Below, in pieces: positions 15,316 to 16,147 of a DNA stretch of 64,000 bases; the first letter of the stretch is position 1; the number at the start of each line of letters is the position of its first letter. The stretch comes from Longitalea arenae. Its GTDB lineage: Bacteria; Bacteroidota; Bacteroidia; Chitinophagales; Chitinophagaceae. Both the position numbers and the translations under genes were made by a program. The notes below the pieces were generated by a model. It saw only the letters and a list, made by a program, of their open reading frames with translations, was not told the origin of the DNA and did no database searches. Where the stretch lies: positions 124,001 to 188,000 of the forward strand of contig NZ_JAFFJX010000005.1 in NCBI RefSeq assembly GCF_016924755.1, read 5' to 3'.

Positions 15316-15323
15316 TATTTTTG
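15316..15323 (+). promoter_or_regulatory. Candidate -7 box of the tRNA-Arg transcript
   Basis: TATTTTTG matches the Bacteroidota -7 consensus TAnnTTTG and lies 62 bases upstream of the mature tRNA 5' end. No convincing -33 TTG was found at the usual spacing. A hairpin follows at 15326-15345 (CTCCCGA pairing with TCGGGAG), which would sit at the start of the precursor transcript. Confidence 0.4.
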
Positions 15324-15345: not shown

Positions 15346-15419
15346 GTGTGTTTTGAACCGGTAAGCAATTATTGGTTCAAAATAGGACCGGTAGCTCAGC
15401 TGGATAGAGCAGCTGCCTT

Positions 15420-16073
15420 CAAACTTAGGAGCCTTATAAGGGAAACGAAACCTTATAAGTGGATGCCACTATATCGGTGAAACCTTCCTGTACAATGCAG
15501 ATGGCAATACCGAGGAAACTTGAAATCATCTGGTGAAAGGTAAATTCTGATGGTAATAGTTTCATGATTTATCATCATACCAAGAACAAAGGTGATTTAG
15601 GTGTTTTGAAGGTTAAACTGGACCTGTACCTGCAAGGATTTTTGATACTAGCACCTGAAACTGAGCATGCACCATTCGATGTAGTGATTTACAAAGATGG
15701 TGTTTTTAAGTCCGTTCAGGTTAAATTCAGAAATCTTAACAGAAATGGAGTTCTTCAGATCCCTTTTAGAAGTTGTTACAGCACTTCCAAAGGAGTAATG
15801 ACAAAGCTTGTAAACAAGGCAGTTATTGACATTTATGCAGTGTATTGCCCACAAACAGATTCTTGTTATTATTTTGATCCAAAGCATTTCAACAGGTGTA
15901 TAAGTTTAAGGGTAAAAACATCATTGAATAATCAGCAACAAGGAGTTTGGATAGCTGATGATTTCAAAAAGGTTCCGTAGAGACTACACGTGGCACACCT
16001 GAAATGGTGAAGATATAGTCCAGACCACAAATTCTGACGCGAGTCGGAAGCAGGGAAACCTGTAGCGGGTAAG
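15420..16073 (+). ncRNA. Group I self-splicing intron in the tRNA-Arg anticodon
   Basis: The intron is 654 nt. P1: exon CTT plus intron C (15417-15420) pairs with GGAG (15428-15431), placing the required U-G wobble at the 5' splice site. P10: CTTAG (15424-15428) pairs with the first five exon-2 bases, CTAAG (16074-16078). P2: 15433-15441 with 15451-15459. P3: TGCCAC (15464-15469) with GTGGCA (15990-15995). P4: TCGGT (15474-15478) with ACCGA (15509-15513). P6: GGAA (15514-15517) with TTCC (15973-15976). P7: GACTA (15982-15986) with TAGTC (16016-16020), inside the classic AGAGACTA and AAGATATAGTCC core elements. P8: CACC (15996-15999) with GGTG (16006-16009). P9 has a GCGA tetraloop at 16032-16049, and a further hairpin with a GAAA loop is at 16051-16062. 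The last intron base is G (16073). The endonuclease gene sits in the P6 loop. Confidence 0.95.
15564..15980 (+). CDS. Intron-encoded PD-(D/E)XK homing endonuclease (I-Ssp6803I-like)
   Basis: 138 residues, close to the about 150 of I-Ssp6803I, the PD-(D/E)XK endonuclease of a cyanobacterial tRNA-fMet group I intron. The fold's core is visible: a GDLGVLKVKLDLYLQG first helix (10-25), then PFDVVIYKDGVFKSVQVKFR (37-56) containing candidate catalytic Asp39, Gln52 and Lys54. The Asp-to-Gln (13) and Gln-to-Lys (2) spacings match those recalled for I-Ssp6803I. The expected N-terminal acidic residue, at about position 14, is Val here, so activity is uncertain. By family, it should cut intron-less tRNA-Arg(UCU) genes at the anticodon loop and drive intron homing. 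The stop codon (TAG, 15978-15980) lies just before P7, so the last codons double as intron core. By eye the gene is richer in A+T than its neighbours, consistent with transfer. Confidence 0.9.
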   Translation: MIYHHTKNKGDLGVLKVKLDLYLQGFLILAPETEHAPFDVVIYKDGVFKSVQVKFRNLNRNGVLQIPFRSCYSTSKGVMTKLVNKAVIDIYAVYCPQTDSCYYFDPKHFNRCISLRVKTSLNNQQQGVWIADDFKKVP

Positions 16074-16118
16074 CTAAGCAGCAGGTCATTGGTTCGAATC
16101 CAATCCGGTTCACAAGAA

Positions 16119-16147
16119 AGCTTCACTTAAAAAGTGGAGCTTTTTTT
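16119..16147 (+). terminator. Rho-independent terminator of the tRNA transcript
   Basis: AGCTTCACTT (16119-16128) pairs with AAGTGGAGCT (16132-16141) with one G-U pair and a 3-base loop, followed by a run of seven T. It begins six bases after the discriminator base, so the tRNA with its intron looks like a single-gene transcript. Confidence 0.9.

Follow-up and report, generated by a model that had tools for sequence, protein, structure and literature searches.

A group I intron with a putative homing endonuclease gene in the tRNA-Arg(UCU) gene of a Bacteroidota genome

A tRNA-Arg(UCU) gene in a Niastella-like genome of the phylum Bacteroidota is very probably interrupted after U34 by a group I intron that carries a gene for an I-Ssp6803I-type homing endonuclease; from the anatomy of the locus we infer splicing of the intron, cleavage by the enzyme and homing of the element. 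The locus lies on the plus strand of the window, i.e. the whole stretch of 64,000 nucleotides that was analysed, which is part of contig C35 of the source genome (G000; 7.28 Mb in 40 contigs). Group I introns are found in other bacterial tRNAs, and tRNA-Leu(UAA) introns are known from cyanobacteria. An earlier note, made from the letters of the window alone, had proposed a group I intron in tRNA-Arg(UCU) with an I-Ssp6803I-type PD-(D/E)XK endonuclease in a Bacteroidota host, and each of these elements is now backed by separate tests. All features tested have precedents in known tRNA introns or I-Ssp6803I-type genes, and what appears to be new is the tRNA and the phylum for a gene-carrying intron of a known kind.

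The interrupted tRNA gene and the ribozyme fold

No tRNA was detected by ARAGORN in the unspliced window, and the interrupted tRNA gene scored 24 bits with the Rfam model RF00005, whose cut-off is 29. When the 5' exon (15385-15419, through U34) was joined to positions 16074-16113, ARAGORN reported a tRNA-Arg(tct) of 75 bases in which all four stems are formed, starting at 15385, as expected from the two tRNA halves recognised in the earlier note. The 3' exon extends from nucleotide 35 of the tRNA to the discriminator base (16074-16112). The insertion of the intron therefore explains why both ARAGORN and RF00005 miss the tRNA gene in the window. The exon ends read CTT|CTAA, and the splice site is ambiguous by one base, with a C at both 15420 and 16074. 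The cut was placed after U34 because the first intron base is a T in seven loci (L035, L062, L063, L064, L066, L067 and L068), which retain the UCU anticodon only in this way. A splice site after C15420 was ruled out, since the same seven loci would then have a UUU anticodon. The cut after U34 also yields a U.G pair in P1 and G16073 as the final intron base. So delimited by the joined tRNA, the anticodon-preserving cut and covariation, the intron comprises 654 nt (15420-16073), with omega-G at 16073.

Reading of the sequence upstream of the tRNA revealed a promoter-like -7 element, TATTTTTG, at 15316-15323, which fits TAnnTTTG, a motif that we take to be a Bacteroidota-like -7 promoter motif; the element is absent from the output of a sigma-70 scan. 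The word TATTTTTGCG upstream of the tRNA also occurs in the seven relatives inspected (L033, L036, L073, L074 and the intron-free L085, L086 and L087). Downstream of the tRNA, a terminator-like hairpin with a U run (16114-16146) has a folding energy of -16.5 kcal/mol (z -5.22; equalled by 1 of 200 shuffles). The private terminator proposed in the earlier note is thus found as a stable hairpin with a U-rich tail, but it is missing from a consensus terminator scan. A single transcript would run from the tRNA promoter to this terminator. The intron RNA would fold via P3-P9 and form P1 by pairing of its GAG guide with the terminal CUU of the 5' exon, and two transesterifications with an external G would excise the intron, restoring an AGA-reading tRNA.

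The restored tRNA would be the only conventional reader of AGA found in the genome. Searching the genome with RF00005 yielded 56 tRNA matches, whose surroundings were all rerun through ARAGORN. The Arg anticodons among them are ACG (two kinds), CCG, CCT and one TCT, and no second conventional tRNA-Arg(UCU) is present among these 56 matches according to RF00005 and ARAGORN. AGA accounts for 93 of the 769 Arg codons in 33 long open reading frames of the window. The lone TCT anticodon belongs to a class II gene (G000:C1:69916-70000; L056, L160), which is called tRNA-Arg(tct) by ARAGORN and has G73 and a long variable arm like a tRNA-Ser. Of 13 genomes searched, a single one has it; G071, which by RpoB is closest to the source genome, gave no match. 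If expressed and charged with serine, such a tRNA would misread AGA. Thus, another intact tRNA-Arg(UCU) gene serving the cell, which the earlier note had named as a possible objection, was not seen. It is extremely improbable that the interrupted gene is dead and that the class II tRNA serves AGA: the existence of that gene and its assignment by ARAGORN fit such a view, but its tRNA-Ser-like features, its rarity, its absence from the search result for G071, which has an interrupted gene, the negative search for an intact site in all 13 intron-bearing genomes and the covariation of the exon stems all argue against it.

The helices of the intron are arranged in the order of a group I ribozyme, with a P3-P8 core containing the P3/P7 pseudoknot, P4-P6 and P9. 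Presumably, the intron resembles the Azoarcus tRNA-Ile intron. For counting base pairs, 20 intron cores were aligned after removal of the endonuclease stretch; the duplicates L061 and L069, the differently placed L101, the seven loci L103-L109 and L066, which comes from the same genus as L064 and is almost identical to it, were omitted. The P1-P9 structure and the tRNA stems were drawn from the window sequence and the pairs were then counted on the alignment. In the 20 sequences, 97.5% of the 1507 helix cells are paired and pairing drops to 28-41% when the partner is shifted by 1-3 columns, a comparison that is biased toward pairing in the unslid version because one of the aligned sequences had served as the template for the structure. 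Both sides have changed in 45 of the 76 pairs, as opposed to a mean of 23.1 in shuffled alignments, and none of 500 shuffles reached 45; the acceptor, anticodon and T stems of the tRNA contribute to this total.

The two core words singled out in the earlier note, AGAGACTA (15979-15986) and AAGATATAGTCC (16010-16021), are indeed located at these positions. P1 is formed by the exon sequence CUU (15417-15419) and the guide GAG (15429-15431), and the U15419.G15429 pair at the splice site is invariant in 20 of 20 sequences. P7 (15982-15986 / 16016-16020), which encloses P3' and P8, is likewise invariant, and the invariance of P1 and P7 speaks neither for nor against those helices. P2 (15433-15441 / 15451-15459) consists of 9 bp with double changes in 9 of 9 pairs. 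P3 (15464-15469 / 15990-15995), which has 6 bp and crosses P7, shows double changes in 5 of 6 pairs with 100% of the cells paired. P4 (15474-15478 / 15509-15513), also included in the alignment count, is followed by a short P5. P6 (15514-15521 / 15969-15976) is paired in 97.9% of the cells with double changes in 3 of 7 pairs; its loop of 447 nt contains nearly all of the endonuclease gene and is replaced by a short loop in gene-less relatives. Double changes were also counted in P8 (15996-15999 / 16006-16009; 3 of 4 pairs), in P9 (16032-16038 / 16043-16049; 7 of 7 pairs, 87.6% of the cells paired) and in P9.1 (16050-16054 / 16059-16063; 4 of 5 pairs), which is closed by a GAAA loop. P9.0 is formed by 16024-16026 and 16068-16070. 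Among the pairings listed in the earlier note, P1, P2, P3, P4, P6, P7, P8 and P9 belong to the set whose count exceeds that of the shuffles, while P10 is not shared. P10 was rejected as a common feature: a 4-bp match exists in the window, but only 70.9% of the cells are paired and no covariation occurs across the set. The P4-P5 arm of 40 nt has no P5abc-like extension, in line with subgroup IC3, whose introns are described as lacking the P5a-d region (PMC11835236).

The Rfam group I model RF00028 did not match the window copy of the intron, which is attributed to the 447-nt P6 loop. By contrast, three gene-less relatives were aligned end to end (positions 1-253), with 40.6 bits for L074, 38.3 for L073 and 37.7 for L082 (E 2.1e-7, 1e-6 and 1.6e-6, respectively), all below the gathering score of 50. 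Scores above 50 were obtained for L103, L107 and L110, the 399-nt intron L037 reached 16.8 bits and the gene-less L102 was searched with RF00028 and remained unmatched. According to the earlier note, the lack of a hit to this model would refute the group I assignment. The window copy is indeed unmatched, but the alignment of its gene-less relatives overturns that refutation. RF00028 on its own was discarded as a test for group I introns, as it misses the window copy and as its two weak, sub-threshold matches in the source genome (L001, 18.1 bits; L002, 16.8 bits) lie elsewhere. The sole Rfam match above threshold in the window is a DUF805 RNA (RF03081; 42706-42770, minus strand, 70.3 bits).

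The endonuclease gene and its allelic states

The endonuclease gene (15564-15980) encodes a protein of 138 residues. The earlier note had placed an intact gene in the P6 loop; the open reading frame does start there, but its final codons extend into P6' and the stretch preceding P7, with the stop codon TAG (15978-15980) lying between P6' and P7. The gene has a GC content of 35.5% versus 46.8% for the window. Its product was assigned to the Pfam family PF11645 (PDDEXK_5; 99.2 bits, E 2.7e-28), and a search of NCBIfam with the window protein gave no match. The PHROGs match is phrog_5018, a family of unknown function (E 7.9e-9), and PADLOC returned a single weak match (E 0.038). The best named matches that were found are from Niastella soli (91% identity) and N. 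yeongjuensis (87% identity). AlphaFold2, run on 12 sequences, delivered one usable model out of five with a mean pLDDT of 68.7; the values for the other four range between 33 and 39. In a Foldseek search, ranks 1-4 are taken by the four chains of I-Ssp6803I (2OST; E 1.4e-7 to 2.7e-4), with which the window protein shares about 18% of its residues in the structural alignment. The sequence profile matched 2OST at E 0.52, ranked behind an unrelated dehydrogenase at 0.081, and in this comparison the T-K-x-K-G-D, D and Q-V-K positions align with 2OST. All 15 sequences compared share D39, Q52 and K54, which are aligned to D, Q and K of 2OST. We take these residues (D...QxK) to be the catalytic set. 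In many PD-(D/E)XK active sites a glutamate is expected upstream; the corresponding position is V14 in all 15 sequences. The family match and the predicted fold support the assignment of the protein as a putative PD-(D/E)XK homing endonuclease of the I-Ssp6803I type.

The endonuclease is under purifying selection. Among 66 pairs compared by the Nei-Gojobori method, dS is finite in 31, for which the median dN/dS is 0.092 and the maximum 0.17; in the four close pairs dN/dS lies between 0.06 and 0.12. The reading frame is open in the 12 aligned copies, which had been picked as full-length matches.

The distribution of the element was studied in a sample of 294 genomes of the family and in 395 genomes of the phylum. 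Protein matches were found in 10 of the 294 family genomes, nine of them full-length and one a remnant (G175). The intron core is present in 13 of the 294 genomes (4 genomes in a reversed-pattern control), including 3 of the 6 genomes of the window's own genus. The three additional intron-bearing genomes carry no endonuclease gene; their introns measure 212 nt (G071), 213 nt (G253, like G071 from the window's own genus) and 232 nt (G163). A search for an intact tRNA site was negative for all 13 intron-bearing genomes and positive for 17 of 25 further genomes from the same genera; the remaining 8 of the 25 may have variant stems.

Within the window's own genus, the source genome has the gene-carrying intron, G071 and G253 have the gene-less intron and G150, G209 and G288 have a full tRNA-Arg(UCU). 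In the latter three genomes, 100-113 bases upstream of the tRNA are 78-81% identical to the window. The RpoB proteins of the source genome and G071 are nearly identical, and the two loci, which share 81% DNA identity over 1365 upstream bases, differ in the presence of the gene. A gene-carrying intron, a gene-less one of about 212 nt and an empty site within one genus are what would be seen if a mobile parasite had been caught at different stages of a homing cycle. The endonuclease would cleave an intron-free tRNA-Arg(UCU) gene close to the anticodon, and repair from an intron-bearing copy would insert the intron into the cut gene. As all three allelic states occur in one genus, experiments in bacteria could follow how the intron invades, loses its gene and is itself lost. 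In one of the intron-free loci (L085, G209), an exact second copy of the final 38 bases of tRNA-Arg(UCU) is present at 2111-2148, about 0.6 kb downstream of the uninterrupted gene, a pattern that an integrated element would leave.

In the phylum sample, the core pattern was detected in 15 of 395 genomes (5 in the reversed control), 12 of which are outside the family, and 11 of these 12 introns reside in tRNA-Arg(UCU). Two genomes (G433 and G528) have a gene-carrying intron at the same site as the window, and G486 has a gene-less intron there. In G559, a gene-carrying intron is inserted two bases downstream of the window's site. This downstream site, after the UCU anticodon, is also occupied by compact introns of 194-204 nt in seven genomes of family f38 (L103-L109). 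The twelfth intron is located in tRNA-Leu(UAA) (G525). Joining the exons of 31 distinct introns, including viral ones, gave 29 tRNA-Arg(tct), one tRNA-Leu(taa) and one phage tRNA-Lys(ttt).

Judged by eye, the nuclease tree broadly tracks the rpoB tree within the family; thus, many of the copies may be ancient and inherited vertically instead of being products of recent transfer. Horizontal transfer across the family, sought as a conflict between these broadly similar trees, was not supported. The agreement of the trees would also suit an intron that still splices but is no longer mobile, with the endonuclease as an inactive relic and the patchy distribution resulting from losses of an old vertical intron. 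Moreover, the gene is absent from G071, G253, G163 and G486, only a remnant is left in G175 and the frame of one viral relative (L135) looks broken. We nevertheless regard an immobile relic as unlikely, as a relic would drift, whereas the dN/dS values of the close pairs are low, the frame is open in the 12 copies selected as full-length and the putative catalytic residues are invariant. The presence and absence of the intron, the alleles with and without the gene and the purifying selection support the reading of the earlier note that the intron is probably mobile.

Comparison with known tRNA introns

The Synechocystis tRNA-fMet gene contains a group I intron of 655 nt that encodes I-Ssp6803I, a protein of 150 residues (PMC1995217). 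The window intron is like it in that a group I intron of similar length in a tRNA gene encodes a PD-(D/E)XK homing endonuclease, and unlike it in that the tRNA is tRNA-Arg(UCU) instead of tRNA-fMet and the host belongs to the Bacteroidota instead of the cyanobacteria. The locus would extend endonuclease-carrying tRNA introns from the one setting to the other. The tRNA-Leu(UAA) intron of the phylum (L110; 61.8 bits with RF00028; joined tRNA-Leu(taa)) has the same core words as the window intron, but with 271 nt it leaves no room for an endonuclease gene.

Introns in the tRNA-Arg(CCU) genes of alphaproteobacteria, such as BbgpI of Bartonella, are likewise group I introns in an arginine tRNA (PMC7717549), but they occupy another isoacceptor than the UCU of the window. 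The word "homing" does not occur in the main text of that article, and no homing endonuclease is mentioned there. The Bartonella intron self-splices in vitro (PMC7717549), and this argues against the view that splicing of the window intron is inefficient or dependent on a host protein, which would make the element a regulator of AGA decoding and not a neutral parasite. The efficiency of splicing would set the level of the only conventional tRNA for AGA detected in the genome; however, relatives without the intron exist, and we consider a regulatory role very unlikely. The earlier note knew of no described example, which is consistent with the open-licence literature: no report of a group I intron in a Bacteroidota tRNA-Arg(UCU) is among the matches listed, judged from titles and the beginnings of abstracts, so that this negative result carries little weight.

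Viral relatives and a tRNA-plus-endonuclease cassette

The endonuclease alignment matches 20 loci on viral contigs with 47-72% identity in the best segment. One of them (L131) is matched over residues 1-43 only and another (L130) over residues 1-111; the 18 matches that cover most of the window protein or residues 1-111 are 47-53% identical. L113 is a viral gene-carrying intron in tRNA-Arg(UCU). A pattern scan of the viral contigs recovered the L113 contig and, in addition, L135, the locus with the seemingly broken frame. The branch of L113 in the nuclease tree is implausibly long, probably due to a fault in the frame or the alignment, and no claim is drawn from it. In 17 of the 20 viral loci, a complete tRNA-Arg(tct) starts 131-141 bases upstream of the endonuclease match. 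In L115, a tRNA-Arg(tct) directly follows the match, and the tRNA upstream of the match in L112 was labelled Pyl(cta); on inspection by eye, its anticodon may be a TCT displaced by a single base. A search for plasmids as a vehicle gave no match.

Nine loci share a 568-bp cassette, 92-100% identical, that consists of a complete tRNA-Arg(UCU) and the PD-(D/E)XK endonuclease gene (L118, L120, L121, L123, L125-L128 and L132, the latter from Synechococcus phage Sf-FR1, PV340855.1, 163771-164345). The 300-base flanks of the cassettes are mostly 15-45% identical. Common flanks (78-100%) were found for L118 and L120 and for L123, L125 and L126; the right flank of L121 is 74% identical to those of L118 and L120, and the left flanks of L127 and L128 are 94% identical. 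Given these shared flanks, there are about four independent cassette contexts. Eight of the nine cassettes lie between a 5' tRNA half ending in TTCT and a 3' half starting with AAG; Sf-FR1 has only a short left tRNA remnant. The flanking halves can be joined to a tRNA-Arg(tct) in three of six tested loci (L123, L127 and L128). Those of the other three (L118, L120 and L121) do not fold together, and thus not every insertion was clean. The joined halves of L115 have an odd anticodon loop of 8 bases. No group I match was reported for L118, L123 and L128 in a search that also misses the L113 intron, and exact uninterrupted forms of two of the split phage tRNAs were not present in the viral contigs. 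In a similarity search, 205 phage records matched the joined tRNA of L128, 83 of which cover 80% or more of this tRNA; Synechococcus, Cyanophage or Prochlorococcus appears in the names of 143 of the 205 records.

Searching with the L118 protein gave matches in 28 phage records, six of which were inspected. In Sf-FR1 and in Acinetobacter phage Herod, whose protein is 40% identical to that of L118 (the comparison being with L118 and not with the window protein), a tRNA-Arg is located just 5' of the endonuclease gene. More distant relatives are found directly after tRNA-Met in Salmonella phage vB_SenA_SM5 (L138) and with a tRNA-Ser overlapping the end of the gene in Streptomyces phage Navo (L139). 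In Haloarcula tailed virus 2, a tRNA-Ala follows the endonuclease gene at about 0.2 kb, and no annotated tRNA is present near the relative in Enterococcus phage EFP01 (L136). The PF11645-like nucleases of phages such as Sf-FR1 and Herod are, like that of the window, tied to tRNA-Arg(UCU), either beside it or between its parts. Unlike the window protein, most of them are encoded without an intron beside a complete tRNA-Arg(UCU).

One small PD-(D/E)XK lineage could have specialised on the anticodon of tRNA-Arg(UCU), persisting as the rider of an intron in Bacteroidota and in two viral contigs and, in cyanophages, as the 568-bp cassette whose replacement tRNA compensates for the split gene, which would be a natural cleave-and-rescue element; in our judgement, the chances of this being correct are about even. 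The tRNA of the cassette would both rescue the function of the split gene and resist the enzyme, and as a kind of element the phage cassette may be more novel than the intron. The viral relatives are of interest as a possible vehicle and as an unexpected way, other than in an intron, for the nuclease to persist in a tRNA gene. An uncultured phage (L166; LR756508.1, ~12.2 kb) has a gene-less intron of 193 nt with group I core words in tRNA-Lys(UUU).
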